38,134 nt of DNA, taken from Acidobacteriaceae bacterium (GTDB lineage Bacteria; Acidobacteriota; Terriglobia; Terriglobales; Acidobacteriaceae). Of the stretch, positions 6,020 through 27,490 are shown one piece after another (the stretch's first letter is position 1; each line of letters starts with the position of its first letter). Made by a program: the position numbers and the translations under genes. Location: contig PMHV01000033.1 in assembly GCA_003156805.1 (NCBI GenBank), positions 1,298-39,431 on the forward strand, given 5' to 3'. The notes beneath the pieces are model-generated. The model was not told the origin of the DNA and made no database searches. It worked only from the letters and a program-made list of their open reading frames with translations.

Positions 6020-8584
6020 TCAGAACGCGTAGCGAAGTGCGAATTCGGTTGTGCTGCCGTTGAAACCCTGTGTAGGAATTGCTGCCAGTCCCGGTATTGC
6101 GTTTGAAGCCAGCCCCTTGCCGTTATATCCGTAATAGTTCCATGTCATTCGGTAACTGAGACCTTTGCCCAAGTCGAAAACCGCCCTCACATACGGCTTC
6201 TGATAATTGAACGTGAGGGTTCCGGGCACCTGCAGCGGATCGATTGCTAGAGTATTGCCCCCGACGAAGGTCGCCGCGTACCCGATGCTGTTGCTGACTC
6301 GCTTGTTGGGCTTCCAGGTGATGTCGCCATACACGAAGTGCTGCTTGCTGGAGTACGACCCCAACCCGGAAATCGCGGCTGGCGCATAGCCCAGGCTGGC
6401 TGGGCATTGCGTGGTTGGAGGAGGGCCGTTGGCGTTTTCGTAATAGCAAATCTGCGCCTGGTTGTAGATGTCCGTGTACGTATAACCAAGATTGAAGAAC
6501 AACTTTGAGTTTGGCATGAGAGTGGTAACGAAACTGTAGTTGCGGCCGTGCTCGAGGTCGTTGACGGTCGAAACATTGTCCCGGTTTTCGTGGATGTCGA
6601 GTGCGCCGTCGAAGATGATCCAAGCGCGCGGTTTGTAATTGGCGTGGATCTTGTAGCTTTGCACTTGTCGCGGGCTAATCCGGGTGAACGAATAATCGTT
6701 GTAACCGAAGTCGAAATCCGCTGTAATCCGCAGGCTATCCATGGGGCGGGCCGTCAGGCCCATAAACAACAAATCCTCGTGGATTTCCGTGAGGTTGCGA
6801 GCCGTATCGTTGCCCGCCGCTGGACCGGAAAAAGTCAGCGAAATAAGCTGGCCGGTCGCGGGATCCACGGTCTCGGTGCAGGCAGAAGGCGTAGCGCAGG
6901 CTCCCCGCGCGGCGAAATAATCATTCGCGGCCGTACCGCCGGTCCCTCCCGGAAAGTAGGTTTCCGCTGAATAGAAAGTCGCGTTGAAGTCGGCAATGGT
7001 GCGGTCGGTGTACACATAACCGATCCTCCCGGTCAGACGCTTAGTGAAGTCGTACTGGAGCTGGAAGGTATTCGATCTGAGGTTCTGCCCCAGAAAACTG
7101 GACGTCGGGCCGTTGACGATGTCGGCGGACGAACTCGCGCTATGACTGGGACAGGTGGCCGCAATGTAGGGTGCGGGGCAGAGGGAAAGAAACGTTGCCG
7201 AAGTAAACACCGCCTGCGGCTGAGCTAGACCCACCAGCCCGGGCTGCATCTGGCCGAATATGTTGGTTTCAGACGTGTCCCAAAGGCCGGGAGTGCGCCA
7301 GTTGTCGTAACGAAACGAATCGAGGATGCGAAACCTGTCGGTGACCGAATAAGCTCCCGACCAGTCGGCATTCACCGAGACGCGCTTGGCATCCGCCGGG
7401 CCGCCCGCGGTGCTTCCCCGCGAACCGTTTCGGCTGACGTAGTCGTTTACGATCTCGTTGAAATCCGGGACTGAGTTATTCGACGTGCTGTAGCCCAGCG
7501 AGCCCGACGTTTCAAAGTTCTTGAGGTAATTCGACTGAAACCCCAGGCGCTCGCTGGGCATGAAATTACGCGGCCGGCCGGCCTGGCTGTAGGAGAGATA
7601 ACCGTTGCAGGTGGGATTGAATATGTTTGGCGGCGTCACAATTGGCGCAGCGCAGGGCAGAATTTCAACCGGCCCGTTGGTGCTCCAAATAATGCCCGGG
7701 TCCACGGGCGTGCCGTTGGCAAGGGTGTAGCCGGAGTTTTGCGGGTTGTCTGTGACCACGTTGTCCTGCTTGTAATAACTCAGGAACTGATCGTAAGAAA
7801 TTGTCGTCTTGGGCAAAATCCTGAAGTCTACGCCGGCACGATAGGAGTTGGTCGTATAGCTATAAGTTTCATTGAACTGGGGGATCGTGCCGCCGTCCGT
7901 GGTAAAAAAACCGGGTCCCTGATCCCGATCGTGCGAAAAACCCAGCCGGAGTCTTACGCGCGATTGCGGCAGCAGCGTCAAATTGTAATCCTGCATTCTG
8001 CGAACCAGGTCCAGCGAATGCGGCGAAGTTGCAATACCTACAGCGGGACTCGAAGTCGAAGGGTTCAGGGGATTGGCCAGCAGGTTGTAGTCCCAGAAAT
8101 TCTTGTCCCGGCGAAACAGCACGCGAAAGTCGTACCATTTGTTCTTGTCGAGGCGCAGCCGGGACACATCGTTGGGGTCGCCGCCATAGCCAAAGTTGCT
8201 GAAGCTGAGATTGTCGAACAGGAAGCCATTGTGGTCGAGCGAGCGCATATCCAGCGTGTAATCGAAGAGACGAAGGCCGGGACCGAGATTCACGAAAGTA
8301 TCGTAGGTGTCGGTGTTCCCATTGATCCAGCTCGTCCGGTAGCCCGCCTCGATGGATTGCCGGACGTTGTAGCCCCCCGAGTCCATCCCCTTAGTTTCTC
8401 CCGAGCCATTCTGTCCCCGAGACATCAGCGGAGACGCCAATAGCGTCACGGCAAGAACAAAAAAGCTGAGCCCACGAACTGCCGGACAATATCCCACGAC
8501 CGTTCCCTCCGCCGTTCGCGGCTCGCACTCGTTGCCGGCCGTGCGTGCGAGGTGTTCGTTGCGTGATGTCCGTACAACGTTCAT
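6020..8584 (-). CDS. MtrB/PioB-like outer-membrane beta-barrel
   Basis: This 854-residue protein has a hydrophobic export signal (LSFFVLAVTLLASPLMSRGQ, about residues 39-58) after an unusually long polar N-terminal stretch, so the true start may lie further in. The mature part is dense in alternating aromatic and polar residues and Tyr/Asn/Asp turns, for example FRVLFRRDKNFWDYNL, and ends in ALRYAF with a terminal Phe, the signature of Gram-negative barrels. Its size and position, 8 nt after a decaheme DmsE-like gene, match the decaheme-associated MtrB/PioB barrel that sheathes MtrA/PioA in the outer membrane. I see no N-terminal CxxC like that of Shewanella MtrB. The family call depends on context as much as on sequence; a profile search would settle it. 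Confidence 0.75.
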   Translation of the reverse strand: MNVVRTSRNEHLARTAGNECEPRTAEGTVVGYCPAVRGLSFFVLAVTLLASPLMSRGQNGSGETKGMDSGGYNVRQSIEAGYRTSWINGNTDTYDTFVNLGPGLRLFDYTLDMRSLDHNGFLFDNLSFSNFGYGGDPNDVSRLRLDKNKWYDFRVLFRRDKNFWDYNLLANPLNPSTSSPAVGIATSPHSLDLVRRMQDYNLTLLPQSRVRLRLGFSHDRDQGPGFFTTDGGTIPQFNETYSYTTNSYRAGVDFRILPKTTISYDQFLSYYKQDNVVTDNPQNSGYTLANGTPVDPGIIWSTNGPVEILPCAAPIVTPPNIFNPTCNGYLSYSQAGRPRNFMPSERLGFQSNYLKNFETSGSLGYSTSNNSVPDFNEIVNDYVSRNGSRGSTAGGPADAKRVSVNADWSGAYSVTDRFRILDSFRYDNWRTPGLWDTSETNIFGQMQPGLVGLAQPQAVFTSATFLSLCPAPYIAATCPSHSASSSADIVNGPTSSFLGQNLRSNTFQLQYDFTKRLTGRIGYVYTDRTIADFNATFYSAETYFPGGTGGTAANDYFAARGACATPSACTETVDPATGQLISLTFSGPAAGNDTARNLTEIHEDLLFMGLTARPMDSLRITADFDFGYNDYSFTRISPRQVQSYKIHANYKPRAWIIFDGALDIHENRDNVSTVNDLEHGRNYSFVTTLMPNSKLFFNLGYTYTDIYNQAQICYYENANGPPPTTQCPASLGYAPAAISGLGSYSSKQHFVYGDITWKPNKRVSNSIGYAATFVGGNTLAIDPLQVPGTLTFNYQKPYVRAVFDLGKGLSYRMTWNYYGYNGKGLASNAIPGLAAIPTQGFNGSTTEFALRYAF

Positions 8585-8592
8585 GGCGCTCT

Positions 8593-9600
8593 CTACTTGA
8601 AAAAAGTTGGGTCGAAATTAGAGCCGTGGATCTGGTTATGGCACAGCGTGCACGACTTGAAGAAAGTCTCCTGACTATGAAACGAGGGCGCCGCCGGCGC
8701 TCCACCGGTTTTCGCGTTGGGAGCAGAGCTGGTATGGCATTGCAGGCACAGCAGATTGACGTTGCTCACTCGCAGCATGTGAACATTCGCTCCCCCGTGA
8801 GGAATATGGCAGGACGTACACCCTTCGACCTTCACAGGCTCGTGTTCGAACACATACGGTCCCTGCTTGTCGGTGTGGCAGGTGAAGCAAACCGCATCCT
8901 GCGTCGCCGAAGTCCGCACTTGCTTGGGTCCAACCGTGCCGTGCGGATTATGGCAGTCGGTGCACTGGACCAGGCCTTCGTTGACGCGATGGTGGAAGGG
9001 CATTTCAAACTCGGACTTCTTCTGCAGATGGCACGAGTAACACAGCTCAGGCTGCGCTTTGACCAACAGAAACTCCTTGGTTTGCGCGTGATGCGGAGAA
9101 TGGCAGGAGATGCAACTGACGTTATTTTGCGTATGTATCGAGTTGATGGCGTTCATGTGTTCCGTGCCACCGGCGTGACAGGTCATACAGCGGGCGTTGA
9201 TTTCCTTCGTCGAAGCGCTCTCGAACAGGAATATTTTGGTTTTGTCGCCGCCGCCCGCCACATGGTCCGCACCCGGACCATGGCAGCCCTCGCAACCTTG
9301 CTTGGACGGGCCGCCCTCTTTATTCAGTGTGGTCTTCCAGTGCGGCGTTTTCTCCCAGGCGTTGTAGATTTCCTCGTGACAGGTTTTGCAGGTCTGCGCT
9401 CCCACATACTTGGAGGCTTCCGAAGAAGGCGCGACGGCTGCCGGTGCGCTGGCGGCAGGTGCGCTGGCGGCAGGTGCGCTGGCGGATTGAGCGCTCTTCT
9501 CCGGAACGGGCGGGTGAGCCTGGCCGGAAGCTAGCGCGCCGACGAAAACAAATATCCCCGAGAAGACAAGAACGCGAAACGCCCTGGAACTTGTTGGCAT
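8593..9600 (-). CDS. DmsE/MtrA-like decaheme c-type cytochrome
   Basis: This 335-residue secreted cytochrome contains exactly ten CxxCH motifs in order: CKTCH (C71), CEGCH, CMTCH, CISCH, CYSCH, CTDCH, CFTCH, CTSCH, CLQCH and CTLCH, spread to the C-terminus, with no other domain. Length and haem spacing fit the DmsE/MtrA/PioA family, which fills an MtrB-type barrel and carries electrons across the outer membrane. A signal peptide ends near ASGQA. An Ala/Ser/Pro linker, made by a 15-bp tandem repeat, separates it from the first haem. I chose ATG 9600 (GAGGA 10 nt upstream); a GTG at 9606 is also possible. It is the first gene of a five-gene operon. No MtrC/OmcA-like surface cytochrome is present in the window. 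Confidence 0.92.
   Translation of the reverse strand: MPTSSRAFRVLVFSGIFVFVGALASGQAHPPVPEKSAQSASAPAASAPAASAPAAVAPSSEASKYVGAQTCKTCHEEIYNAWEKTPHWKTTLNKEGGPSKQGCEGCHGPGADHVAGGGDKTKIFLFESASTKEINARCMTCHAGGTEHMNAINSIHTQNNVSCISCHSPHHAQTKEFLLVKAQPELCYSCHLQKKSEFEMPFHHRVNEGLVQCTDCHNPHGTVGPKQVRTSATQDAVCFTCHTDKQGPYVFEHEPVKVEGCTSCHIPHGGANVHMLRVSNVNLLCLQCHTSSAPNAKTGGAPAAPSFHSQETFFKSCTLCHNQIHGSNFDPTFFK
9443..9485 (-). repeat. 15-bp in-frame tandem repeat in the decaheme cytochrome linker
   Basis: Two full copies of ggtgcgctggcggca and a third copy of 13 nt lie in tandem. On the coding strand they specify repeated Ala-Ala-Ser-Ala-Pro in the flexible linker between the signal peptide and the first haem. The number of copies could vary between strains without breaking the frame. 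Confidence 0.85.
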
Positions 9601-9739
9601 CAGCACACTTTCCTCAACATCCGCGGTTTGTCATGAACTGTGACACAGTGACAAAGAGCCTTGTAGGCTCACCAGTTTGCGTCCTCGGCTGGCGTCGATA
9701 TTTGCACCGAAAAATGGTTAATCGTAAAGCTGTTCAGCG

Positions 9740-9766
9740 TGCCGCGGCTGGTCAATATTGCACACT
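9740..9766 (-). promoter_or_regulatory. 27-bp regulatory box, copy A
   Basis: The plus strand reads TGCCGC, two variable bases, CTG, one variable base, TCAATA, one variable base, TGCACACT. It matches copy B (11151-11177) at 23 of 27 positions, and both copies lie upstream of minus-strand genes. AAGAATCA follows both copies at slightly different distances. No known regulator motif was recognised. The box lies about 140 nt before the decaheme cytochrome start. Confidence 0.6.
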
Positions 9767-9888
9767 GTTGCAGTCTTCTAAGAATCACAGCGAAACAGTC
9801 GCGTAATGCACATTTGTGTCTTTCGCCATTTGTTGATTTAAGGGAGCAGCAGCGCCGGCTAAGTATCCACTGCAAGACTTGGGCAATC

Positions 9889-9904
9889 TGTGATGCGGAT
9901 CACA
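9889..9904. promoter_or_regulatory. Perfect CRP/FNR-family palindrome upstream of the cytochrome operon
   Basis: TGTGA-TGCGGA-TCACA is an exact inverted repeat of the CRP consensus type (TGTGA-N6-TCACA). The flanks also resemble the second site at 11256-11271: both are preceded by TTGG, then CA, any base, and TCTGTGAT. It lies about 290 nt before the decaheme gene. The cognate regulator is not in the window. Confidence 0.7.
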
Positions 9905-9982
9905 TAACGACGTGTCTGAGATCACTCGGCGTTCCAGAACCGGATCAAATCTCAAATGAAGCCGTCCGAAAAACAGCGTGGC

Positions 9983-11092
9983 TTAGAGATCTCTCGCCGA
10001 ACCTGCACCTGTGGTTGCGAATCGCTGATCCACCTCCGAGGGCTGGGTCTTCGTCGTTTTAGTCGGCGCGAAGTCGAGGACCACGCGTGACGCCACATCG
10101 CCGTGCTCGAGGCGATCGAAGATCTGGTTGATCGAAGATAGGGGCTGCAACTCGATATCGGCTTTGACCTTGCCCTCGGCAGCGAAGGCGAGGGCCTCGG
10201 CCATGTCCTGGCGCGTGCCGACGAAAGAACCGCGGATGGTTATGCAGTTCGCTACCACATCGAAGAGCGGAACTGGGAATTCACCTGGCGGCAGCCCGAC
10301 CAAGACGCAAGTGCCACGCTTCCGGGTCATGCCGACACCCTGCTTGAATGCGTTGAGCGAGGGTGCCGTAATCAGAACCCCATGAGCTCCACCGCCGGTC
10401 GCCTTTTTCACCGCGGCTGCCGGGTCGCCAGTCTTGGCATTGATCATGAGATCGGCGCCGAGGAACTTCGCATGGGCCAGCTTGCCATCATCGATGTCGA
10501 TTGCACAGACGGACAGTCCCATGGCCTTGGCGTATTGGATGGCCAGATGTCCGAGTCCGCCAATGCCAGAGATAGCGATCCATTCGCCAGGCCTCGCCGC
10601 TGTCTGCTTGATCCCCTTGTAGGTCGTGATCCCAGCGCAGATCAGCGGCGCGGCATCCGCAGCCGCAAGGCCGGCAGGCACATGGGCAACGTAATCCGGG
10701 TCGGCGAGAACGTACTCGGCAAAACCACCGTTAGCGGTATAGCCGCCGAACTGCGCCTGAGCGCACACCGTTTCCCAGCCCGTCAAGCAGTACTCGCAGT
10801 GACCGCACGCCGAGTAGAGCCAAGGCACCCCGACCCGGTCGCCCTCCTTCACGATTGTCACGCCCGATCCAACGGCGGCGACCAGGCCGATGGCCTCGTG
10901 CCCAGGAATGAACGGGAGGGTGGGCTTCACCGGCCAGTCGCCATGCGCCGCATGGAGATCCGTGTGGCATACGCCGCACGCCTCGGTTTTTACTAAGATT
11001 TGGCCTGCCCCGGGGGACGAGATGTCCCATTCCCGAAGCGCCAAGGGTTTTCCGAATTGCTCGACGACTCCGGCGTGCATCGTACGTGCCAT
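9983..11092 (-). CDS. adhP: Zinc-dependent alcohol dehydrogenase (AdhP type)
   Basis: This 369-residue medium-chain dehydrogenase oxidises alcohols or reduces aldehydes with NAD(P). Visible features are the catalytic zinc ligands in CGVCHTD (C42) and PGHE (H65-E66), the structural zinc lobe ACGHCEYCLTGWETVC with four cysteines, the third catalytic ligand in PLICAGIT, and the nucleotide-binding glycines GIGGLGH. The catalytic core is full length. About 25 extra residues rich in Thr/Lys/Ser follow the usual end, which is odd but harmless-looking. AGGAG lies 7 nt before the ATG. The gene is alone on its strand, but its upstream region shares two sequence elements with that of the cytochrome operon, suggesting that reducing power from alcohols and the electron conduit are controlled together. 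The exact substrate cannot be read from sequence. Confidence 0.93.
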   Translation of the reverse strand: MARTMHAGVVEQFGKPLALREWDISSPGAGQILVKTEACGVCHTDLHAAHGDWPVKPTLPFIPGHEAIGLVAAVGSGVTIVKEGDRVGVPWLYSACGHCEYCLTGWETVCAQAQFGGYTANGGFAEYVLADPDYVAHVPAGLAAADAAPLICAGITTYKGIKQTAARPGEWIAISGIGGLGHLAIQYAKAMGLSVCAIDIDDGKLAHAKFLGADLMINAKTGDPAAAVKKATGGGAHGVLITAPSLNAFKQGVGMTRKRGTCVLVGLPPGEFPVPLFDVVANCITIRGSFVGTRQDMAEALAFAAEGKVKADIELQPLSSINQIFDRLEHGDVASRVVLDFAPTKTTKTQPSEVDQRFATTGAGSARDL

Positions 11093-15537: not shown

Positions 15538-15896
15538 CCGGTTATTCCCTCCCTCAGACATTTGGCAGCCTTTTGACTAGTCCAAATGGGTGATTGCTAA
15601 AGGGCTAGTACTGAAATATCGTTCTGGCCAGTGGCCGGAAGATTTTCCCCCAAAAGCGGCCCAGGCTAGTGAATCTCCCCTGAGTTCCCCCAAAGCTGTG
15701 CTCGACTTAGTTGTTTCTGCAGGAGAATCTGTGCGTCCCTGCGGATCGGCGCAGTTCGCTCAGTTGATGCTCACACCGGCGTGACCGTACGGGAATGAGA
15801 ACTTAAGTTCCCGCGTGTGTGTGTCGCGTAGAACTGAAACCAGCCATGAGCGGGACCAAGCGATCGGCAGGTAAGAGGAAATCGACGGAGGGCTTC
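15538..15896. other. Intergenic leader before the VCBS protein
   Basis: About 360 nt with no convincing gene. An in-frame GTG at 15819 could extend the downstream protein by 26 basic residues, but the ATG at 15897 has the better ribosome site. No promoter could be fixed with confidence. Confidence 0.4.
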
Positions 15897-18800
15897 ATGT
15901 TAAGGCATACAGTGTCGGGACTCGCGATGGTCCTGCTTTTCGGAGTATTGGCGGCCCATGCGGGGCAGTTCCTGGAGGCACCTCAATACGCGACCGGGGG
16001 CAATCCCCAAGCGGTAGTCGCGGGAGATTTCAACGGTGACGGCAAGCTGGATCTCGCCGTGGCGGATTCAACCTCCAACAAAGTCAGCGTGCTACTGGGC
16101 AATGGCGATGGCACGTTCCAAGCCAAGGTTGACTACATCACTGGGACTACTCCGCTGGGAATCACCGTAGGCGACTTCAATGGCAATGGTTTTCTCGATC
16201 TGGCAGTAACGAACTCGGGCAGCAATACCGTAAGTGTTTTATTGGGCAATGGCGACGGCACTTTCCAGCCCAAGGTGGACTATGCCACCGGCAGGCAGCC
16301 CGTGGGAGTGGCGGCGGGCGACTTCAACGGGGATGGCAACTTAGACCTGGTGGTCACCAATGCCGTGGACGGAACAGTCAGCGTTCTTCTGGGAAAGGGC
16401 AATGGCACGTTCAACGCCGGAGTAACCTACAACACCGGCTTCAACCCGTACTCGGTAGTGGCGGTGGACCTCAATGGTGACGGCTTCCTGGATTTGGCGG
16501 TCGCCAACAACAATAACAACAACATCATAAGCGTGCTTCTGGGAAAAGGCGACGGCACCTTCCAGACTCAATACCAATTCGCTACGGGAAACACTCCGGT
16601 TTCGATTGCTGCAGCCGACCTCACCGGAGACGGAGCGCTGGACCTGGTTGTCGCCAACCAACAGGGCAACTCGGTAAGTGTACTGCTCAGCAACGGGAAA
16701 ACTGGCACGCTGTGGGGCCTTCTGGCTCACGTGGATTACGCGGCAGCCGCTTTCCCAACCGGCGTCACCGTGGGAGACTTCAACGGCGACGGCTTTCCCG
16801 ATTTGGCTGTATCGGACGGCAACGGGAACACGATCAGCGTGCTTTGGGGACAAGGTAACGGCACGTTCCTGGGGCAGGAGAACTGCGGAACGGGCAACAT
16901 TCCTTACTCGGTGATCGCCGGAGATTTTAACGGCGACGGTATTACTGACCTGGCTGCGGTCAACTCAGGCAGCAACACGGTTAGCGTAGTGCTCAGCAAC
17001 GGAGACGAGACTTTTCAGTCGCGCGTGGATTATCCCGCCGGCCCCACTCCCACCTCGGTCGCAACCGCCGATTTCAATGGCGACGGATTCCTTGATCTGG
17101 CAGTGGCGACCAACGGCTCGGGAACAATCTCGATTGTTCTGGGCAACGGCGATGGAACGTTCCAGGGACCGAATCATGTCTCCACCGGAACCAGTACCGA
17201 CCCGTATGCCGTGGCTGTAGGCGACTTCAACGGCGACAAAATTCCGGACCTGGTGGTGGCGAACTACGCCACCAATACGGTCGGCGTGCTGATCGGAAAA
17301 GGCGACGGAACATTTCTTACGCACGTGGATTATCCGGTAGGCCAGCAGCCCGCATCTGTTGCCGTGGGCGACTTCAACGGCGACGGCAACCTCGACGTAG
17401 TCGTGGCGAATTTTAACAGCAATACCGTCAGCGTGCTGTTGGGCAATGGGGATGGAACTTTGCGGTCCGCAGTGAGTTACTCCGTTGGCAACGATCCCAT
17501 TTCCGTGGCGGTGGGGGACTTCAACGGAGATAAGAAACTTGACCTGGTCGTGGTGAATGAGAAGGACAACAATGTCAGCGTGTTGTTGGGCAATGGCGAC
17601 GGTACGTTCCAGGCGGGAGTGATATATCCTACGGGATCCGGCGGCAATCCCTTGTCCGTGGCGGTGGGCGACTTCAACGGCGACGGCAATCTTGACTTGG
17701 CCGTTGCTGACTTTGAGACGCAAAAAGTCAGCGTGCTGCTGGGCAACGGCAACGGTACGTTCCAGACAGTGGTGGCCTATTCCACCGGCGCCAATCCTTC
17801 CTCCGTAGTGGTAGGGGACTTTAACGGCGACGGCAAGCTGGATCTGGCTCTGGCCAGCACTCCGCCGGGAATCGGAAATCTGGCCAGTCTGCTGCTCGGC
17901 AATGGCGATGGAACATTCGCAGCGCCGACGCTGTATGGCACTGGATCGAACGCGTACTCGGCCGTGGCCGGCGACTTCAACGGGGACGGCGCTCTCGATC
18001 TGGCTGTGGCCAACGGCGGAAGCAATACTGTGAGCGTGCTGCTCAACAGCCACGGCGCGCAGATCGCTGTCCAATCCTCGACTAATCCCTCGGTCTACGG
18101 ACAATCGGTAACGTTCACCACGAGCGTAACGGCAAGCCTCGCGGGCACGGGAACACCTACCGGAACCGTCACGCTCAAGAATGGCAGCGCGGTCGTTGGC
18201 TCGGGAACGCTGACGGGCGGGCAGGTGGTCGTAAGCACATCGACCTTGACGGCAGGAACCGACTCGCTCTCTGTTGTTTACTCGGGTGACAGCAACTTCC
18301 AGTCGCACACCGTCGGATTCACCCAGACGGTGCAAACCGCGGGAACCACCACGGTGCTGACTTCCAATGCAAATCCGTCGGAGCCGAATCAATCCGTCAC
18401 CTTTACTGCGACGGTGAGCCCCAGCACGTCCGGCACTCCCACGGGATCGGTGAGTTTCTTCGACGGAACGACCAAACTGGCCACTTCGACCTTGAATGGC
18501 AGCAGAGTGGCGACATACTCGATCTCCACGTTGAGCATGGGCACGCACAGCATTACGGCGATCTATAGTGGCGATTCGAACTTCAACTCCAGCACTTCGC
18601 CCGCGCTGAACCAGGTGGTGCAGCAGGGCAACACCAGCATTGCGTTAACGGCTTCTCCCAATCCAGCAAACTTGAGCCAGTCCGTCACGTTGACCGCGAC
18701 CGTCAGCTCCGGGGGAGCGGGCACTCCCACGGGCACAGTCACTTTTCTGGACGGAACCACCACGCTGGGCACTGGGACGTTGAACGGCAGCGGAGTGGCG

Positions 18801-19457
18801 GCATATTCGATCGGCACTTTGTCCGCTGCGACCCATAGCATCACAGCCGCTTATGGCGGGAACACAAACCTCATCGCCAGCACTTCTTCGGCAGTGAGCC
18901 TGGTAGTGAATGCTGGGGATTTTCAGATTATGGCGTCGGCATTATTGCCGGCTGCGGTAACCCCGCCGGGAACCGCTACTTCAACCATCACGACGACTGC
19001 GTTGAATGGACTGAACCTTTCGAACGTGGCGCTTACCTGCGCAATCACTCCGGCGGCAACTCCTTCGGCGACGTGCAGTGTCGGGACCATGTCGGTATCG
19101 GGTACGACCGGTATTTCCATGCTGACCGTCACCACCGTCGGACCCACATCAGCCCTGGCGCCCGGGGATCGTCGTCCGGGCGCGCTGTTCGCGCTGGGCT
19201 TGATCATTCCGGCCATGTTGTTGGGCGGTGCAGGGCTGGGCACGCAGAACCGCAAGAAGCTGCTCAGCTTCTGCATCGTCTTCCTGGTGCTCAGCGGGTG
19301 CGTGTTCCAGGTGGCGTGCGGCGGTGGTGGAAAGACAACAACTACGACTCCAACCGGCAACTCGGGCACTCCGGCGGGCACGTATACCGTCACCGTGACC
19401 GGCACTGCCGGAAGCACGCAACACACAACCCTCCCCGTTACGCTGACGGTGCAGTAA
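15897..19457 (+). CDS. Large secreted FG-GAP/VCBS-repeat protein with Ig-like domains
   Basis: This 1186-residue protein has a signal peptide ending AAHAG. It then has fourteen tandem repeats of about 45-60 residues built on DFNGDG, a central LDLAV and VSVLLGNGDGTF; the Asp-rich loop is the FG-GAP calcium site. Fourteen repeats fit two seven-bladed propellers. Three Ig-like Big_3-type domains follow, each with the QSVTFTATV pattern, GTPTGTVTFLDG and YSGDSNF. The C-terminal region has two hydrophobic stretches (ALFALGLIIPAMLLGGAGL and LLSFCIVFLVLSGCVFQVAC) flanking a short basic loop, then Gly and Thr runs, then a final beta-like segment. GGAGGG precedes the ATG by 4 nt. The propeller plus Ig layout suggests adhesion or carbohydrate binding at the cell surface. 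A terminator-like hairpin follows. Confidence 0.93.
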   Translation: MLRHTVSGLAMVLLFGVLAAHAGQFLEAPQYATGGNPQAVVAGDFNGDGKLDLAVADSTSNKVSVLLGNGDGTFQAKVDYITGTTPLGITVGDFNGNGFLDLAVTNSGSNTVSVLLGNGDGTFQPKVDYATGRQPVGVAAGDFNGDGNLDLVVTNAVDGTVSVLLGKGNGTFNAGVTYNTGFNPYSVVAVDLNGDGFLDLAVANNNNNNIISVLLGKGDGTFQTQYQFATGNTPVSIAAADLTGDGALDLVVANQQGNSVSVLLSNGKTGTLWGLLAHVDYAAAAFPTGVTVGDFNGDGFPDLAVSDGNGNTISVLWGQGNGTFLGQENCGTGNIPYSVIAGDFNGDGITDLAAVNSGSNTVSVVLSNGDETFQSRVDYPAGPTPTSVATADFNGDGFLDLAVATNGSGTISIVLGNGDGTFQGPNHVSTGTSTDPYAVAVGDFNGDKIPDLVVANYATNTVGVLIGKGDGTFLTHVDYPVGQQPASVAVGDFNGDGNLDVVVANFNSNTVSVLLGNGDGTLRSAVSYSVGNDPISVAVGDFNGDKKLDLVVVNEKDNNVSVLLGNGDGTFQAGVIYPTGSGGNPLSVAVGDFNGDGNLDLAVADFETQKVSVLLGNGNGTFQTVVAYSTGANPSSVVVGDFNGDGKLDLALASTPPGIGNLASLLLGNGDGTFAAPTLYGTGSNAYSAVAGDFNGDGALDLAVANGGSNTVSVLLNSHGAQIAVQSSTNPSVYGQSVTFTTSVTASLAGTGTPTGTVTLKNGSAVVGSGTLTGGQVVVSTSTLTAGTDSLSVVYSGDSNFQSHTVGFTQTVQTAGTTTVLTSNANPSEPNQSVTFTATVSPSTSGTPTGSVSFFDGTTKLATSTLNGSRVATYSISTLSMGTHSITAIYSGDSNFNSSTSPALNQVVQQGNTSIALTASPNPANLSQSVTLTATVSSGGAGTPTGTVTFLDGTTTLGTGTLNGSGVAAYSIGTLSAATHSITAAYGGNTNLIASTSSAVSLVVNAGDFQIMASALLPAAVTPPGTATSTITTTALNGLNLSNVALTCAITPAATPSATCSVGTMSVSGTTGISMLTVTTVGPTSALAPGDRRPGALFALGLIIPAMLLGGAGLGTQNRKKLLSFCIVFLVLSGCVFQVACGGGGKTTTTTPTGNSGTPAGTYTVTVTGTAGSTQHTTLPVTLTVQ

Positions 19458-19845: not shown

Positions 19846-22260
19846 ATGAGGAGCCAGGCAAGTTCACTTTGGTTTAGAGCCGCGGTTCTCGGCGCGATGA
19901 TTTTGCCGGCGGTGTTGTTGGCTCAGGTTTCGGCGCCGCCGGGGGCGGCACCAGCGGTGCCTGCCGGCTGGCTTCATCGCGATCTTCTTTTTCCCGAACC
20001 TGGTTTTCCCGAGCGTACGGAGGCGGTTCCTGTTTCTTTGGGAGAAGTTTCCGCTCCGGTGGCAGCTACGATGGCTGTACCTGACGATTGGATTCGCCAC
20101 GACCTTGTTTCCTCACCGCCGCTTTTCGGGGCGTCGCGTGTGTTTCCTCCAACCGGTTCGAGCGAAATTTCTTTCGAAACTTTGCGTCCCGTTGAAGGTG
20201 CCATTCCCGTGCCTTCCGACTGGAGCCACCGCCACCTGATTTTCTCCCGGCCGGCAACCGCGGAACAAGCTGCCCGCGTGCAGAAGGATCCTCGCTACTG
20301 GCAGCAGCTTTATCGCAGGCAGTTGCCGATGGCTTCGCCTACGGAACCAATGCAGGCTGCGCCCCTGGGATTGAAGCCCTGGAATCCTGTGCATCGCCCT
20401 CCCAGCAATACCTCCATTCACCGGGACTGGTCGCAAGACTTGGGTAGCGGCTCCTCGGCCGGAGCGGGGAACTATCCCGCGAAATTTTCTTTCCTGGGAA
20501 CCAGCGCCAACTGCGCCGGCACTGGCCAGCCCGACTACGTGGTTTACAGCACCGGCCTCACAGGCGCGGTGAATCAAGCCAGCCTCGTCGCCTACGATAA
20601 TCTCTACTCCGGCTGCAGCAGTGACGGTGCTGTCCCCACGGTTTATTGGGCGTATAACACCTTGGGCGCAGTCCAAACCTCTCCCGAGTTCTCCTACGAC
20701 GGCTCACAGGTTATGTTTGTTCAGACGGCCGCCGGAGTGGCGAGCCTGGTTTTGTTGAAGTGGACTCCTTCTTCAACCGACACTGTGACCATGCCGGAAG
20801 CTCCAACGGTGGTGCCCCCCATTACGTATCCGGCCTCCTGCTTCACGCTGCCCTGCATGACGACGCTTCCCTTGACGAACAACGTCGGCGCGCCTAACGA
20901 CGACACCACGTCGTCGGTCTTCTACGATTACAGCGGGGACATTGCGTGGGTAGGGGATTCAGGCGGCTGGCTGCATGAGTTCACGCCCGTGCTAAACGGC
21001 GTACCTTCCGAGGTGACTACGGGCGGATGGCCCATTCAGTTGAACCCAACCAGCCCCACCGCTCTCTCCAGTCCGATTTATGATCGGATTACAGGGAACG
21101 TCTTTGTCGGCGACCTCGGCGGGTTTTTCTATAGCGTGAGCGCTTCCACGGCGGTTGTGACTACTTCCCCCCAGCTCGACTTCGGCGCCGGAATCGTGGA
21201 CGGTCCCATCGTGGATTCCACCGAAGGACTGGTTTATGTGTTCGTCTCCAACGACGGCCTTACCACGAACTGCAACCTCGGCACCAGCGCCTGCGCCGGC
21301 GTTTACCAGCTTCCAGCCGACTACTTCGCCGGCGATACCGGTCTTGAGGTCGAGGTGGGCGTGGCCACAAATCCTGCTCCGCTGTTCGATGGTGGTTTCG
21401 ACAACGACTACTACAATTCGACGGACGCAACGGGGAACCTGTACGTCTGCGGCGGAGCCTCCAGTTCCGCCCAACCGACGTTGTATCAGATTTCAATCAA
21501 CGCGAGCGCTCTGCCCGCCATGGGCGTGCCCATTACCCGGCTGGTAATTAGCGGGGCGACCCCGGTTTGTTCACCGGTCACCGATGTCTACAACGCGAAT
21601 GCCACGGGCGGTGCGGAGGAATACGCCTTTGTCAGCGTGGAGGACGATGGGATAACGTCACTATGCGGCAGCGCTGGATGTCTCTTTAATTTCGTCACTG
21701 CTCAGTGGCAGGCTGGAACGACCTACGCCGTCGGGCAGGAAATTCTCGTCCCGAATCTCCATATCGAAGTGGTGACCACGGGAGGCACTTCCGGAGCCAC
21801 GGTTCCAGGTTGGCCGGGTTTAACCGGCCACACTACGGGCGATGGCAGCGTGCAATGGTTGGACCAGGGTTCGCTCAGTGCCTCCACGCTGGCGAGTTGG
21901 TCCGCCGACCGTTCTTATCCGCTTGACGCAAGAATCGTCGACAGCAACGGGTACGTGGAGATTGTCTCCACTTCGGGCCTCAGTGGCGGAAGCGTACCCA
22001 CTTGGAATACAGTTCCCGGCGGTACTACGGTCGACGGCACTGGCGCCCATCCCGTGACCTGGACGAATGCGGGCGTTCTCCCAAGTCAGGTGCTGAAGGC
22101 GGTTGGCGGCACGAGCGGAATTATTATCGACAACACAGTCAGTGCGGGCACGCTGGCCGGGACTTCTCAGGTATACTTTTCCACTCTCGGCAATCAGCCG
22201 ACCTGCACCGGTGGCACGGGCGGATGCGCCGTGCAGGCATCGCAATCGGGACTGCACTAA
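19846..22260 (+). CDS. Large secreted protein heading the peptide-maturation operon
   Basis: This 804-residue protein has a signal peptide (LGAMILPAVLLAQVSA). Residues about 30-145 hold three degenerate repeats on P-x-x-W-x-x-x-x-L, seen as PAGWLHRDLLF, PDDWIRHDLV and PSDWSHRHLIF. The middle part (about 200-620) is beta-rich with motifs such as PAKFSFLGTSANCAGTGQPDYVVYS and GDIAWVGDSGGWLHEF that suggest a PQQ-like or YVTN-like propeller. Near the end are two repeats of the W-x-A-x-x-x-Y-x-x-G type (WQAGTTYAVGQEILV; WSADRSYPLDARIV) seen in carbohydrate-binding and phage tail-fibre modules. About ten cysteines occur in the mature part. Its stop lies 28 nt before the peptide gene, so the two are probably co-transcribed. 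It could be a target, carrier or surface partner of the pathway; none of this is established. Confidence 0.85.
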   Translation: MRSQASSLWFRAAVLGAMILPAVLLAQVSAPPGAAPAVPAGWLHRDLLFPEPGFPERTEAVPVSLGEVSAPVAATMAVPDDWIRHDLVSSPPLFGASRVFPPTGSSEISFETLRPVEGAIPVPSDWSHRHLIFSRPATAEQAARVQKDPRYWQQLYRRQLPMASPTEPMQAAPLGLKPWNPVHRPPSNTSIHRDWSQDLGSGSSAGAGNYPAKFSFLGTSANCAGTGQPDYVVYSTGLTGAVNQASLVAYDNLYSGCSSDGAVPTVYWAYNTLGAVQTSPEFSYDGSQVMFVQTAAGVASLVLLKWTPSSTDTVTMPEAPTVVPPITYPASCFTLPCMTTLPLTNNVGAPNDDTTSSVFYDYSGDIAWVGDSGGWLHEFTPVLNGVPSEVTTGGWPIQLNPTSPTALSSPIYDRITGNVFVGDLGGFFYSVSASTAVVTTSPQLDFGAGIVDGPIVDSTEGLVYVFVSNDGLTTNCNLGTSACAGVYQLPADYFAGDTGLEVEVGVATNPAPLFDGGFDNDYYNSTDATGNLYVCGGASSSAQPTLYQISINASALPAMGVPITRLVISGATPVCSPVTDVYNANATGGAEEYAFVSVEDDGITSLCGSAGCLFNFVTAQWQAGTTYAVGQEILVPNLHIEVVTTGGTSGATVPGWPGLTGHTTGDGSVQWLDQGSLSASTLASWSADRSYPLDARIVDSNGYVEIVSTSGLSGGSVPTWNTVPGGTTVDGTGAHPVTWTNAGVLPSQVLKAVGGTSGIIIDNTVSAGTLAGTSQVYFSTLGNQPTCTGGTGGCAVQASQSGLH

Positions 22261-22288: not shown

Positions 22289-22459
22289 ATGTCCATGAAT
22301 GACTCATCCGATCAGGAGCCAAACTCTGCGGTACCCGTCAAGAAGCCATACGAGAAGCCAGGATTTCGCTACGAAAAGGTTTTCGTCACTTCGGCTCTGT
22401 CATGCGGCAAGATCACGTCGACGCAACATGGGTGCAGAGGGAACACCATGGTGTCATGA
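22289..22459 (+). CDS. Candidate RiPP precursor peptide (56 residues)
   Basis: A small gene lies between the secreted protein and the peptidase, with AAGGGGAAA about 10 nt before the ATG; an in-frame ATG at 22295 is an alternative start. The N-terminal half is charged and Pro-rich (KKPYEKPGFRYEKVFVTSAL), like a leader peptide that a PqqD domain could bind. The C-terminal part, from about residue 35, carries two cysteines (C39 and C49) amid Ser, Thr and Gly (SCGKITSTQHGC) and ends NTMVS with a terminal Ser. Its last 4 nt overlap the peptidase start (ATGA). Gene order and composition fit the substrate of the radical SAM, PqqD and kinase genes downstream. Cys-to-alpha-carbon thioethers or other radical cross-links are possible; the actual modification is unknown. 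Confidence 0.75.
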   Translation: MSMNDSSDQEPNSAVPVKKPYEKPGFRYEKVFVTSALSCGKITSTQHGCRGNTMVS

Positions 22460-23046
22460 GAGAGCCCGACAACCCAGCCGCAGATTCCGCGGCGGCAGTG
22501 AAATGCGATCTGGCGTGCGAGGTTCTGCGCTCGTTCGGTTCGCTTCGTTTCTCCGCCACCGGCTGGAGCATGTTGCCGACGATCTGGCCCGGCGACACGC
22601 TCGTGGTCGAGCGCGTCGCGCAATCCAGAAACAAGGACAACAATAAGGACAACAATAAAGATCAGGTCCGCGTGGGAGATGTTGTGCTGGTCGGGCGCGC
22701 GGGCAGGCTCTGCGCCCATCGCATTGTTTCCACAACGCGTGGTCCTGAGAATTCACAGTGGATCACGCAGGGCGACGGCATGGCCGCGCCCGACTCTCCC
22801 GTTACCGGGAATGAATTGCTGGGCCGCGTCGCTTATCTGATCCGTGCCGGAAAGTTAATGGCGGTGCCGGCAACGCTCACGGTCGTCGAGCGCTTACTGG
22901 CCAGAGTTGTGCGGCGCTCCGTTCCGGCGGCGCGCGCTCTGGTTCATTTGCATCATATGCGGCGGAGTTCCGGGCAGCCGGGCATTTTTTATCAAGATCA
23001 GCCATACCACGACCAGCCGTACCAGAATCGGCCATGTCAGCATTAG
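22456..23046 (+). CDS. S24/S26-family peptidase of the Sec11-like Ser-His type
   Basis: This 196-residue protein contains the S26 signature FSATGWSMLPTIWPGD with nucleophile S38. Instead of the bacterial Lys it has CAHRIV (H88) and TQGDGMAAPD, as in archaeal and ER signal peptidases, so Ser38-His88 with an Asp (D107 or D113) is the likely catalytic set. No N-terminal membrane helix is present, so it may act in the cytoplasm, which suits cutting a RiPP leader. It contains an Asn/Lys/Asp-rich insert from a 12-bp tandem repeat and a C-terminal Tyr/Gln/Pro repeat tail (DQPYHDQPYQNRPC). It overlaps the precursor gene by 4 nt and the kinase gene by 13 nt. Similar proteins recur beside PqqD and HPr-kinase-like genes in RiPP loci. 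Confidence 0.85.
   Translation: MREPDNPAADSAAAVKCDLACEVLRSFGSLRFSATGWSMLPTIWPGDTLVVERVAQSRNKDNNKDNNKDQVRVGDVVLVGRAGRLCAHRIVSTTRGPENSQWITQGDGMAAPDSPVTGNELLGRVAYLIRAGKLMAVPATLTVVERLLARVVRRSVPAARALVHLHHMRRSSGQPGIFYQDQPYHDQPYQNRPCQH
22633..22656 (+). repeat. 12-bp in-frame tandem repeat in the S24/S26 peptidase gene
   Basis: Two exact copies of aaggacaacaat encode a repeated Lys-Asp-Asn-Asn in the loop between the Ser and His catalytic regions. The insert is low-complexity and probably lengthens a surface loop. Confidence 0.85.
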
Positions 23047-23849
23047 CCGCCCAAGTCGAGCGTTCCAGCCTGGTGATTGCCATCGGCGGCATGCCGGTGC
23101 GCGTGCACACGGAAGATTCTTCTTTCCTGGAAATGTTGCAGAGCCGGTATTCCGGATTCCTCGACTCGGAACAAGAAGCGGAGTATGACTTCGATGTAGA
23201 CATTGTCGCTCCGGGGTTTGGCGATCCCGAGGCGGACGTGCGCGTGAGGCAACATTCAGGACGATGGCTTCTGCAGCGCGGCGATTTCCGCGCCGAGTGG
23301 GAGCCGGCCTCGCGCACGGGCAGAATTTGGCAATCGGCGAATCCGTACTCCATCGATGCCGTGCTGCGCATCGTGCACACGCTGGTGCTGGCGAAGCAGG
23401 GCGGATTTCTTCTGCATGCCGCCAGCGCGATTCGCAACGGGAAGGCATTTCTGTTTGCAGGCGTCTCCGGGGCGGGGAAGACTACGATTTCGCGGCTTGC
23501 CCCGCCGGATGCCACGCTTCTGACCGACGAAATCTCCTACGTGCGGAAGGTGGGTGACGGTTACGTGGCCTTCGGTACGCCGTTCACAGGAGAACTGGCT
23601 AAACTCGGCGAGAACGCCTCGGCTGCCGTGGAAGCGCTTTATCTCCTGGCTCAGGGGCCGGAGAATCGCGTCGAACCGTTGACGGCAGGCGAAGCTGGAC
23701 GCGAGCTTCTGGCCAACGTGCTTTTCTTCGCCGAGGATCAGGAATTTGTACACACGGCATTTCAGTCGGCGTGCGATTTCGTCCATCGCGTGCCCGTCCG
23801 CCGGCTCACGTTCGTGCCCGATACCCGTGTCTGGGAGATGATTGGATGA
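23034..23849 (+). CDS. HPr-kinase-like kinase of the peptide-maturation operon
   Basis: This 271-residue protein has an N-terminal domain of about 120 residues without clear motifs and a C-terminal HprK-like kinase domain. The P-loop is G143-VSGAGK-T150, preceded by LLHAASAIRNGKAFLF, the strand and loop typical of HprK relatives in RiPP operons. LLTDEISYV supplies the Walker B acid. It is not the HprK/phosphorylase of the sugar phosphotransferase system: it is linked to a PqqD gene, and relatives such as PadeK and ThcoK phosphorylate the last Ser of lasso precursors. Here the precursor also ends in Ser. It overlaps the peptidase by 13 nt and the PqqD gene by 4 nt. Peptide phosphorylation is inference; a leader-binding or regulatory kinase role is possible. 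Confidence 0.87.
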   Translation: MSALAAQVERSSLVIAIGGMPVRVHTEDSSFLEMLQSRYSGFLDSEQEAEYDFDVDIVAPGFGDPEADVRVRQHSGRWLLQRGDFRAEWEPASRTGRIWQSANPYSIDAVLRIVHTLVLAKQGGFLLHAASAIRNGKAFLFAGVSGAGKTTISRLAPPDATLLTDEISYVRKVGDGYVAFGTPFTGELAKLGENASAAVEALYLLAQGPENRVEPLTAGEAGRELLANVLFFAEDQEFVHTAFQSACDFVHRVPVRRLTFVPDTRVWEMIG

Positions 23850-24172
23850 ACGGCAAACTTTACCTTTCGCGCAGTCCGCGCATCGCAGCCCGCAAGCTGG
23901 GGGATGAAATGCTGGTGATGTCGGGCCAGGGCTCGACGCTGTTCACGCTCAACCCGACCGCAACCATTCTGTGGCAAGCCGCTGACGGCGCCACTTCGCT
24001 CGATGAAATTGTCGATCGCCGCATCTGCTCCGAATTCGAAGTGGGGCGCGAAGAAGCGTTGCGCGATGCCGAGGTGCTCGCCGAAGATTTGGCGAGGCAC
24101 GGTATTCTTTTGGTCTCACGAGAACCGATCGCGCGGCAGGATGCGCCCGCGCAGGAGCAAGAACAACAATGA
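23846..24172 (+). CDS. PqqD-like RiPP recognition protein
   Basis: This 108-residue protein matches the PqqD fold: LGDEMLVMSGQGSTLFTLNPTATILWQAADGATSLDEIVDRR and then the winged-helix part ending LARHGILLVSRE. The TLFTLNPTA-x-x-LW pattern is the hallmark. PqqD domains bind leader peptides and present them to a radical SAM enzyme, so it probably recognises the peptide at 22289-22459. The Gln/Glu-rich tail QDAPAQEQEQQ looks disordered. ATGA overlaps join it to the kinase upstream and the radical SAM enzyme downstream. The start at 23846 was chosen from this overlap; the frame also extends 5' to 23771 within the kinase gene. Confidence 0.92.
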   Translation: MNGKLYLSRSPRIAARKLGDEMLVMSGQGSTLFTLNPTATILWQAADGATSLDEIVDRRICSEFEVGREEALRDAEVLAEDLARHGILLVSREPIARQDAPAQEQEQQ

Positions 24173-25311
24173 GCGTGTTGATGCAGGAAATGGGCGACCG
24201 CGCTCTGCAGCTCGGTGTTCCGCTGAGCGTGCAGGTCGACCTCACCTACCGTTGCAACGAGCAGTGCGTTCATTGCTATCTCGACCACGAAAATCACGGC
24301 GAGATGACGACCGCCGAAATCAAACATCTTCTCAAAGAAATGGCCGACGCCGGAGTTTTCATTCTCACTTTGAGCGGCGGCGAGATTTTCATGCGACGTG
24401 ATTTCTTTGAAATCCTCGAATACGCGCGCGAACTCACCTTCTGCATCAAGCTCAAGACCAATGCGGTGATGATTCGCGAGCATGAAGCTGCCCGCATCCG
24501 CGATCTTGGCGTGGAGTCGATTCAGATCAGCATCTACTCGCACCGGCCGGAAGTCCACGACGCCATCACTAAGGTACGCGGCTCGCTGCGGCGATCGATC
24601 AACGCCATTCGATTCCTCAAATCGCAAGGGCTGAAAGTCGTCATCGCCAACGTGCTGATGACGGAAAACATGGACGACTATCAGGGCGTGCGGGCGCTGG
24701 CCGAAGAACTCGGCGCGGAATCCACGCTCGATCCAACAGTCACGCCGATGATGGATGGCGACCGCTCTATCCTGAAGTTGAACGCGGGCGACTCGGCTTT
24801 GCAGAAACTGTTCCGCGATGAAGCTCTGGTCGGCGATGCCGAAGAGTTCTGCGCCCCGCCGCTGCCGCCGGATGCGGACAGCATGGACTCTTTGCCCTGC
24901 AGCGCCGGCCACACAGCTTGCTACGTTTCGCCTTACGGCGAGTTTTATCCCTGCGTGCAATTCCCGCTGTCGTGCGGCAATGTCCGCCAGCAGCGGTTTA
25001 TCGACATCTGGCGCGACTCCGAGCAACTGAAAGAAGTTCGCTCGATTCGCCTGCGTAACTTGTCGAGTTGCTCGCAGTGCGTGCACGGCTCGACATGCAC
25101 GCGGTGTCCCGGTCTGGCTTTCATGGAAGGCAACATGCGAGGGCCTTCTACCGCCGACTGCGAAAAGTCTTTTGCCCGCACCGGAATTCCTTCGAACAAT
25201 CTGCTGGCGAAGAGGGGTTCCGCGCCACGCCTGGTGCAGATACAATCTTCGCCCGCGCTGCCTGTGCCCGCGATGACGAATGTCACGCTGTCCGGAAGTT
25301 TCACATGGTGA
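24169..25311 (+). CDS. Radical SAM/SPASM peptide-modifying enzyme
   Basis: This 380-residue protein has the radical SAM motif C29-NEQ-C33-VH-C36 in TYRCNEQCVHCY, the following GG region in ILTLSGGEIFMRRDFFEIL, and a C-terminal SPASM region with at least seven cysteines (PCSAGHTACYVSPYGEFYPC, SCGNVR, CSQC, STCTRCPG, ADCE), enough for auxiliary iron-sulfur clusters. It resembles PqqE and other SPASM enzymes that build carbon-carbon or thioether links in peptides. About 35 residues after the SPASM end with an aromatic SFTW tail that I cannot assign. It is the last gene of the overlapping cassette; its start overlaps pqqD by ATGA. The substrate is most likely the 56-residue peptide. Confidence 0.94.
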   Translation: MSVLMQEMGDRALQLGVPLSVQVDLTYRCNEQCVHCYLDHENHGEMTTAEIKHLLKEMADAGVFILTLSGGEIFMRRDFFEILEYARELTFCIKLKTNAVMIREHEAARIRDLGVESIQISIYSHRPEVHDAITKVRGSLRRSINAIRFLKSQGLKVVIANVLMTENMDDYQGVRALAEELGAESTLDPTVTPMMDGDRSILKLNAGDSALQKLFRDEALVGDAEEFCAPPLPPDADSMDSLPCSAGHTACYVSPYGEFYPCVQFPLSCGNVRQQRFIDIWRDSEQLKEVRSIRLRNLSSCSQCVHGSTCTRCPGLAFMEGNMRGPSTADCEKSFARTGIPSNNLLAKRGSAPRLVQIQSSPALPVPAMTNVTLSGSFTW

Positions 25312-26732: not shown

Positions 26733-26980
26733 CTGAACTCCCCCTTCAATTCCCGTAGAATTTGCAATCCCTCAATTTCGACGAGCCGCGAAAGTTTACC
26801 ACGCAAGCGGCGCTGGCGCTCAAATGTTTTTCGGTTCGGCACGTCAAAACCCGCGTCCCGCAGCCATTTCCGGAGACCGATGTGACCCGCGGTCTCCCGG
26901 ACCTTTCAAGGGCGTCCTCTGCCGGAGCGCCGGTGCGATCTTTACTTTCCTCAAACCGCAGAACGTGCGAAATTAATTGC

Positions 26981-27490
26981 ATGCCTCTGGTCGTGCGTCC
27001 ATCACGGATTCATTCGGCGGGCGTCTTCACTACCACGCCCATTCGCAAGAAAACTCGCATTGTCGAATATTGCGGACCGCGCATCACTCCCGAAGAAGCG
27101 GACCGGCTCTATGACGATGCCCCGCGCACTTACTTGTACGGCATGGAGGACGGAAAAACCGTCATCGACGGCGTCGGACTAGGCGCCTATCTCAACCACT
27201 CGTGCGATCCCAACTGCGAAATCGACGAAATCGAAGGGCGCGTCTGGGTCTTTGCCCTGCGCGACATCGCCGCCGGCGAAGAACTGCTCTGGGACTACAA
27301 CCTGTACGATGACGACGATCCTGCGCCCTGCCACTGCGGCTCGCTCAAGTGCCGCGGCACCATGTACTCGCGCGAATGGATGGCCAAGCTAAGGCGCAAG
27401 AAAGCCCGCAAGAAGAAGGCACGCAAGAAAGAACGGAACAACCGGGCAGGGCAGAAATCCACGAGAAACGGAGGCCTGCGAAAAAGCTAA
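26981..27490 (+). CDS. SET-domain lysine methyltransferase-like protein with post-SET motif
   Basis: This 169-residue protein is a compact SET domain. It shows SAGVFTTTPI, the Y-L-N-H-S-C-D-P-N-C core that binds S-adenosylmethionine, GEELLWDYNL, and a post-SET zinc motif C-x-C-x4-C (CHCGSLKC). The last 35 residues are almost entirely Lys, Arg, Gly and Asn (KKARKKKARKKERNNRAGQK), like a histone H1-type tail. Bacterial SET proteins methylate lysines on proteins, and a few act on DNA-binding proteins; the tail could bind DNA or be a substrate in its own right. ATG 26981 was chosen because the domain starts there; the longer frame upstream reads through a hairpin (26870-26900). The 3' end overlaps the efflux gene by 4 nt, tail to tail. 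Confidence 0.88.
   Translation: MPLVVRPSRIHSAGVFTTTPIRKKTRIVEYCGPRITPEEADRLYDDAPRTYLYGMEDGKTVIDGVGLGAYLNHSCDPNCEIDEIEGRVWVFALRDIAAGEELLWDYNLYDDDDPAPCHCGSLKCRGTMYSREWMAKLRRKKARKKKARKKERNNRAGQKSTRNGGLRKS

Follow-up and report, generated by a model that had tools for sequence, protein, structure and literature searches.

Which product does a gene cluster make when a short Cys-containing peptide is encoded beside a peptidase, a kinase, a PqqD-type protein and a radical S-adenosylmethionine (SAM) enzyme? Such a cluster occurs on the plus strand of the 38,134-nucleotide (nt) stretch of Acidobacteriaceae DNA analysed here (the window), which is part of contig 65 of a 5.03 Mb genome in 75 contigs. 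Positions 22289-25311 encode, in order, a precursor peptide, a Sec11/SipW-like peptidase, an HprK-like kinase, a PqqD-type recognition element (RRE) for ribosomally synthesised and post-translationally modified peptides (RiPPs), and a radical SAM/SPASM enzyme. Successive genes overlap by 4, 13, 4 and 4 nt, in exact agreement with the initial annotation of this DNA. We conclude that this is almost certainly a RiPP cassette. Its sequence suggests that this soil bacterium uses it to produce a small Cys-containing peptide that is radical-modified and probably phosphorylated on its last residue. Among named records, the closest relatives are Acidobacteriota under the labels Acidobacteriaceae, Terriglobia or Candidatus Sulfotelmatobacter.

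Conservation of the cassette

Radical SAM matches (E <= 1e-60) were present in 41 of the 101 genomes of a relatives set that includes the window's own genome, and in 35 of the 45 within the genus. Of 41 regions (40 around radical SAM matches, plus the window), 40 contain the kinase, 40 contain PqqD and 35 contain the peptidase, in some cases as fragments. A broader set comprised the best 80 of at least 552 relatives found in named genomes. Beside the radical SAM gene, these 80 loci contain a precursor in 69 cases (by profile), a peptidase in 73, a kinase in 74 and PqqD in 79, and the complete five-gene set is present in 64. A motif match added a 70th precursor (L092). Granulicella mallensis X5P3, a named strain, carries all five genes at its locus (L135), together with a propeller gene and an NTP transferase gene nearby. 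This recurrence bears out the proposal of the initial annotation that the genes form a peptide-maturation cassette; loss of the peptide from beside the other four genes in relatives, which it had named as counter-evidence, was not the pattern seen. The related loci L116, L125, L134 and L148 carry the record labels Burkholderiales, Proteobacteria, Nevskia soli and Candidatus Binatus.

Across the phylum, sampled as an even set of 396 genomes, precursor matches (E <= 1e-3) were found in 14 genomes and radical SAM matches (E <= 1e-60) in 55, with both present in nine. The six genomes whose radical SAM match reaches E <= 1e-170 are the same six that have a precursor match at E <= 1e-20; in one of them (G360) the two lie on separate contigs. 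Other families of the phylum have shorter precursors (e.g., MKKPYEKP..EARAV.C.K....C....TS). Those in L178, L180 and L183 adjoin kinase, PqqD and radical SAM genes, and in L178 and L180 a peptidase gene too. Thirteen candidate precursors were collected from deep relatives (L178, two each in L179 and L180, L181-L185, and L192, L195 and L196, the last three chosen by eye from motif hits), and 12 of them end in Ser. No candidate precursor was found in L193 or L197. No cassette enzyme was detected within the stretch around the short precursor in L179, L181, L182, L184 or L185; L179 comes from genome G189, which carries a radical SAM match about 15 kb from the short precursor. Precursors of the KKPYEKP...C.K...C...S type lie at L179 8395-9330, L181 4750-4878, L182 4261-4389, L184 6177-6308 and L185 9727-9891, and large, secreted-looking proteins are encoded close to those of L179 and L184.

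The window genome also has a second, divergent PqqD-radical SAM-HprK-peptidase cassette (L161; G000:C23:38000-57000), with PqqD at 7678-8169, radical SAM at 8090-9469, a kinase frame at 9388-10644 and a peptidase from 10550. Its candidate precursor, chosen by eye (from about L161:9497), contains three Cys and has Ser as its last residue. The L161 peptidase opens an uninterrupted frame of at least 2817 codons that runs into a secreted-looking repeat protein.

A precursor family with a conserved C-terminal serine

The window precursor has 56 amino acids, two of them Cys (Cys39 and Cys49). Its predicted leader (residues 1-34, with Tyr21 and Pro24 and ending in VFVT) is followed by a predicted 22-residue core, SALSCGKITSTQHGCRGNTMVS. 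No Pfam or NCBIfam model matches this peptide, and a search of 35 family members against NCBIfam returned zero models at E 0.1. The family was examined in an alignment of 68 peptides (69 from related loci, minus L138 and the truncated L116, plus the window's). The leaders share a YxxP...F-[E/V]-T pattern resembling those of lasso peptides and linear polyphosphorylated peptides (LPPs), in which the Y and P of YxxP and the F of F-x-T are present in all 68. The residue after this F is E in 47 peptides and V in 21, and the last predicted leader position is occupied by T 59 times, by V eight times and by I once. Assuming an LPP-like cleavage site, the core is 22 residues long in 52 peptides, with a range of 21-24. 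The most conserved block of the core spans positions 2-7 and includes the invariant Ala+2, Cys+5 and Lys+7. A second Cys is found at +15 in 57 peptides, +14 in eight, +16 in two and +17 in one.

All 68 aligned peptides end in Ser, and the residues around it vary; before exclusions, 69 of 70 peptides ended in Ser, the window's included. This conserved residue is not remarked on in the initial annotation. All four TCN codons are in use at the position of Ser56 (23 TCC, 21 TCG, 18 TCA and 6 TCT). Summed over all peptide pairs, and thus still including the relatedness of the loci, nonsynonymous (pN) and synonymous (pS) differences are 0 and 0.72 at the C-terminal Ser codon and 0.535 and 0.778 over the preceding five codons. 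The A of the window's Ser56 codon is also the first base of the peptidase ATG, and for 50 of the 68 peptides the Ser codon cannot be held by this ATGA overlap. Conservation and the substitution pattern rule out a chance open reading frame: the precursor must be more than this because it adjoins the radical SAM gene in relatives and has a pN/pS of 0.256 in its leader block.

The predicted maturation enzymes

The PqqD protein scores 50.9 bits against PF05402 (cut-off 23.4), and its nearest solved sequences are TbiB1 (E 5.8e-4) and TfuB1 (E 7.1e-4), both known as lasso RREs. The radical SAM enzyme exceeds the Pfam cut-offs for both Radical_SAM (PF04055; 83.4 bits, cut-off 29.5) and SPASM (PF13186; 42.3 bits, cut-off 21.5). 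It contains a CX3CX2C motif and eight more Cys, and all 11 Cys are kept in 80 of 80 relatives. Its nearest solved sequence is SkfB (PDB 6efn; E 1.7e-15). The best curated matches include AhbD, NirJ2 and the mycofactocin protein MftC, all far below cut-off. A plasmid search with the radical SAM protein matched 17 records, all at less than 60% identity, and plasmid searches with the kinase and the peptidase gave zero matches at E 1e-3.

The kinase contains His128, a P-loop (GVSGAGKTT, residues 143-151) and Asp165-Glu166, and this His-Lys-Asp-Glu set is conserved in 72-73 of 74 relatives. Its predicted structure has a PEPCK/HprK fold according to VIA-align and Foldseek; the 50 matches listed by VIA-align are all PEPCK, and HprK turned up in Foldseek. 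A nucleoside triphosphate (NTP) transferase of family PF14907 lies at most 7 kb from the cassette in 31 of 50 wide related loci, as detected with a model built here, and Pfam confirmed the identity of three of three cassette-linked proteins tested. The window genome has one PF14907 match, an NTP_transf_5 protein on a different contig from the cassette (L159 8904-10196; G000:C73). This protein is close to the cassette-linked type and lies away from any detected cassette gene; it is a possible in-trans partner of the window cassette.

We set the start of the peptidase at the ATGA overlap (22456); a longer frame opens at 22402. The description of this protein as a Sec11-like protease in the initial annotation fits its Sec11/SipW-like character and its candidate Ser, His and Asp residues, of which Ser38, His88 and Asp107 are each conserved in 72 of 73 relatives and Asp113 in 71. 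The His88-Asp113 spacing of 25 is that of the published LppS (S29/H68/D93). By analogy, the protein is a candidate RRE-dependent leader peptidase that would cut after Thr34. Coordinates are collected in Table 1.

Table 1. Positions in the window of the cassette genes, the upstream beta-propeller gene and two codons of interest in the precursor.
Feature	Position	Strand	Basis
Beta-propeller protein (c3)	19846..22260	+	cassette partner by conservation
Precursor peptide, 56 amino acids	22289..22459	+	conserved family
Codon of Thr34, inferred last leader residue	22388..22390	+	LPP-like cleavage after F-x-T
Codon of C-terminal Ser56, candidate kinase target	22454..22456	+	Ser kept in relatives
Sec11/SipW-like signal peptidase, candidate RRE-dependent leader peptidase	22456..23046	+	below-cut-off NCBIfam match, conserved residues
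HprK/PEPCK-fold kinase	23034..23849	+	predicted fold, active-site residues
Discrete PqqD-type RiPP recognition element	23846..24172	+	PF05402
Radical SAM/SPASM enzyme	24169..25311	+	PF04055, PF13186

Comparison with known systems

The closest known system is that of the LPPs of Bacillota, published in 2026, in which a signal-peptidase-type leader peptidase is combined with a discrete RRE and an HprK-like kinase and whose lpp cluster was described from Paenibacillus alginolyticus (PMC13381572). Since this combination had thus been published, the initial annotation went too far in calling the window cassette undescribed. The LPP leader has the motif YxxPxVLxHQxIxFETxxS, LppS cleaves after F-E-T, LppK phosphorylates Ser3 of the core, and LPPs and paeninodins are stated to be restricted to Bacillota (PMC13381572). 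Our comparison rests on the published descriptions, including the residues given for LppS. The window cassette likewise has a candidate archaeal-type signal peptidase with Ser, His and Asp, a discrete RRE (PF05402), an HprK-like kinase and a YxxP...F-x-T leader, with no hit for a macrolactam cyclase in the 26 window proteins scanned. An NTP transferase is found near many of its relatives, a likeness at the level of enzyme type. It differs in having a radical SAM/SPASM enzyme, an acidobacterial host, a conserved Ser at the C-terminus and two conserved Cys in the core. It has no NTP transferase of its own nearby, the PF14907 match of the genome being on another contig, and it has a beta-propeller, or in relatives an ABC-2 permease, in place of the MsbA-like transporter; a scan of these 26 window proteins gave no hit for the latter beside the cassette. 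Four LPP traits are not shared, namely a phosphosite at core position 3, the spacing within the leader, an NTP transferase in the cluster and an MsbA-like transporter, and for this reason we do not class the cassette as an LPP system. It may nevertheless work like one, with radical SAM chemistry added.

Paeninodin-type lasso clusters resemble the window cassette in their RRE, in an HprK-like kinase with His-Lys-Asp, in a nucleotidyltransferase partner and in the C-terminal Ser conserved in precursors beside the kinase. The lasso kinases PadeK, ThcoK, SyanK and PsmK act on this Ser, and PsmN is the nucleotidyltransferase partner (PMC9266682). The window cassette differs in its radical SAM enzyme and in the replacement of Asp-Asp by Asp-Glu in the kinase. 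A lasso peptide was rejected, as a search limited to these 26 window proteins gave no Pfam hit for a macrolactam cyclase or B2 protease. The initial annotation had noted that both a cyclase and a transporter were lacking. The former statement holds for these 26 proteins and the latter only locally, as an ABC-2 permease lies near the cassette in 11 of the 50 wide related loci.

SynChlorMet (NCBIfam TIGR04248-TIGR04251) combines an HprK-related protein (ScmC), a PqqD-like protein (ScmD) and two radical SAM/SPASM proteins (ScmE and ScmF). The window cassette has a single radical SAM gene, and its peptide gave no hit. Membership was rejected, as all four curated scores are far below cut-off (49.5 against 125 bits for ScmC, 20.9 against 100 for ScmD, 100.2 against 400 for ScmE and 76.2 against 400 for ScmF). 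The name SynChlorMet was not found in the open-access literature searched. The sactipeptide maturases SkfB and AlbA are likewise radical SAM/SPASM enzymes acting on Cys-containing precursors. The hallmark of sactipeptides is a thioether between a Cys sulfur and an alpha-carbon, and the features of the window cassette that bear on it are its two conserved core Cys and its SkfB-like enzyme. The RRE of SkfB is fused to the enzyme, whereas that of the window is discrete, and to our knowledge a kinase and a signal peptidase are not part of the SkfB and AlbA systems. We found no report, among the open-access titles and abstract starts listed, of a peptidase, HprK, PqqD and radical SAM enzyme together in Acidobacteriota. 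The accessible portions of an RRE-mining paper (PMC12710340) make no mention of a kinase or of Acidobacteria.

Proposed pathway and alternative explanations

Based on the gene set, its conservation, and predicted folds and residues, we consider it reasonably likely that the cassette makes an RRE-guided, radical-SAM-modified and C-terminally phosphorylated peptide. As in known systems, the RRE would bind the YxxP leader and hand the precursor to the three enzymes. The kinase would phosphorylate Ser56, as the lasso kinases PadeK, ThcoK and SyanK do with their targets; we propose this residue because of the fold, the active-site residues and the conservation of the Ser. The radical SAM/SPASM enzyme would modify the core, with one or both conserved Cys (+5 and +15) as its most likely targets, for example by forming a thioether. 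The peptidase, by analogy with LppS, would cut after F-V-T34 and release the 22-residue core, and the NTP transferase found near the cassette in many relatives would probably decorate the phosphate. The mature peptide may act outside the cytoplasm, with the ABC-2 system as its putative exporter in some relatives. In the window's lineage it may work with the co-oriented beta-propeller, to which the cassette is linked.

Several observations weigh against this reading. No Pfam model exceeds its cut-off for the kinase, the ScmC match falls short as noted, and the second Asp of the lasso kinases is Glu in the window kinase. The peptidase is below the Pfam cut-offs for Peptidase_S24 (17.1 bits, cut-off 23.3) and S26 (17.4 bits, cut-off 22.9) and below the NCBIfam cut-off for archaeal-type signal peptidase I (TIGR02228; 34.8 bits, E 1.4e-8, cut-off 51.85). 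Among the 70 peptides, the sole one that does not end in Ser, from L138, looks frame-shifted, and overlap with the ATGA may in part fix the 18 of 68 Ser codons that end in A. L176 (G171:C29, 1345-1827) contains a second precursor-like match that resembles the family as far as its first core Cys and lacks both the second Cys and the C-terminal Ser. The candidate precursor of L192, which lies beside kinase and radical SAM genes, ends in Arg. No precursor was found in 10 of the 80 related loci, of which contig ends explain only some, and L111, L122, L128, L129 and L140 have a precursor and a radical SAM gene with no kinase detected. Across the sampled phylum, a precursor match is missing from 46 of the 55 genomes that have a radical SAM match, and a radical SAM match is missing from five of the 14 that have a precursor match. 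The likeness to LPPs is also imperfect: F-x-T is two residues nearer to YxxP and the VLxHQ part is missing, the T of F-x-T is replaced by V or I in nine peptides, and, with the inferred cleavage site, the third core residue is Leu in 67 of the 68 peptides and Val in one, in place of the Ser3 of LPP and Bsf peptides.

The kinase might instead act on a Ser or Thr near the start of the core, with the C-terminal Ser being kept for another reason such as recognition by the radical SAM enzyme. LppK and the kinase of the Bsf lasso cluster, BsfK, both target core Ser3 (PMC13381572, PMC10368454), the window core carries Ser at positions 1 and 4 and Thr/Ser at 9-11, and the five loci in which no kinase was detected still have the C-terminal Ser. 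However, this Ser is the only invariant Ser/Thr, nine different residues occur at core position 1 and eight at position 4, and PadeK, ThcoK, SyanK and PsmK all target a C-terminal Ser (PMC9266682). We regard a target near the core start as improbable. Still less probable is that a small cofactor or redox mediator is cut from the conserved xALxCGK part of the core, in place of the whole peptide. Small products cut from precursor peptides are known in pyrroloquinoline quinone (PQQ) and mycofactocin, and the AhbD, NirJ2 and MftC matches and the high conservation of core positions 2-7 are consistent with such a product. Those matches are far below cut-off, however, and the second Cys some 10 residues on, the C-terminal Ser and the narrow range of core length (21-24) are likewise kept, which argues for a whole peptide. 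HprK/P with HPr is also in the Foldseek list, as would be expected if the kinase and peptidase formed an HPr-like host-signalling module that lies by chance beside a radical SAM RiPP system. A gene order that is constant across the family, the recurrence of the gene set in deep relatives, and the phosphorylation of precursors by published HprK-like kinases beside discrete RREs make this highly improbable, and modification of the precursor by all three enzymes remains the reading we prefer.

The beta-propeller and other neighbouring genes

Conservation suggests that the five-gene extent given in the initial annotation is too narrow, as it leaves out a beta-propeller gene that ends 28-29 nt upstream of the precursor (stop at 22260, start at 22289). 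The encoded protein has about 800 amino acids, was assigned its fold with VIA-align, and is probably secreted; it has a signal-peptide-like start at 19846, judged by eye, and the longest open frame starts at 19531. Directly upstream, at 15819-19457 (+), is a gene for a 1212-amino-acid protein with FG-GAP and bacterial Ig-like repeats. Downstream of the cassette, a SET-domain protein is encoded at 26762-27490 (+); it occupies this place in 13 of 41 loci, which form the window's subgroup.

On the radical SAM tree, the propeller label undergoes seven changes and the ABC-2 label two, and these labels cluster; they therefore represent few independent events. No locus among the 50 wide loci has both a propeller and an ABC-2 permease, and strict mutual exclusion of the two was rejected because L050/L188, outside these 50, has both and because the independent events are few. 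The clustering would also fit a propeller that lies there through common descent of the locus and stands outside the pathway, and the 1212-amino-acid protein illustrates how common large repeat proteins are in this neighbourhood. Against this, the propeller sits on one side of the cassette or the other depending on the subclade, and is common to subgroups whose other flanks differ, and the second cassette of the same genome also runs into a secreted-looking protein. We consider mere neighbourhood somewhat unlikely and favour the propeller as a partner of the cassette.

Significance

A wider and bolder reading, which we think rather unlikely in its full form, is that the cassette represents a phylum-wide RiPP class in Acidobacteriota. 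In this class, one RRE would hand a single precursor to a radical SAM enzyme, to a kinase for the C-terminal Ser, assisted by an NTP transferase that extends the phosphate, and to a leader peptidase of the signal-peptidase type. The outcome would be a Cys-crosslinked peptide with a phosphate or phosphosugar at its C-terminus, which a dedicated secreted beta-propeller would bind or be loaded with.

Few peptide products have been characterised from Acidobacteria, which are abundant in soil. The cassette described here would carry the logic of signal peptidase, RRE and HprK-like kinase from Bacillota to a second phylum and combine it with the chemistry of a radical SAM enzyme. From the C-terminal Ser, conserved next to a core end that varies, follows one plain prediction, that an S56A substitution would abolish phosphorylation. 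The LPP study describes the role of phosphorylated RiPPs as unknown (PMC13381572), and the beta-propeller, as a possible target or carrier of the mature peptide, may offer a lead on it.

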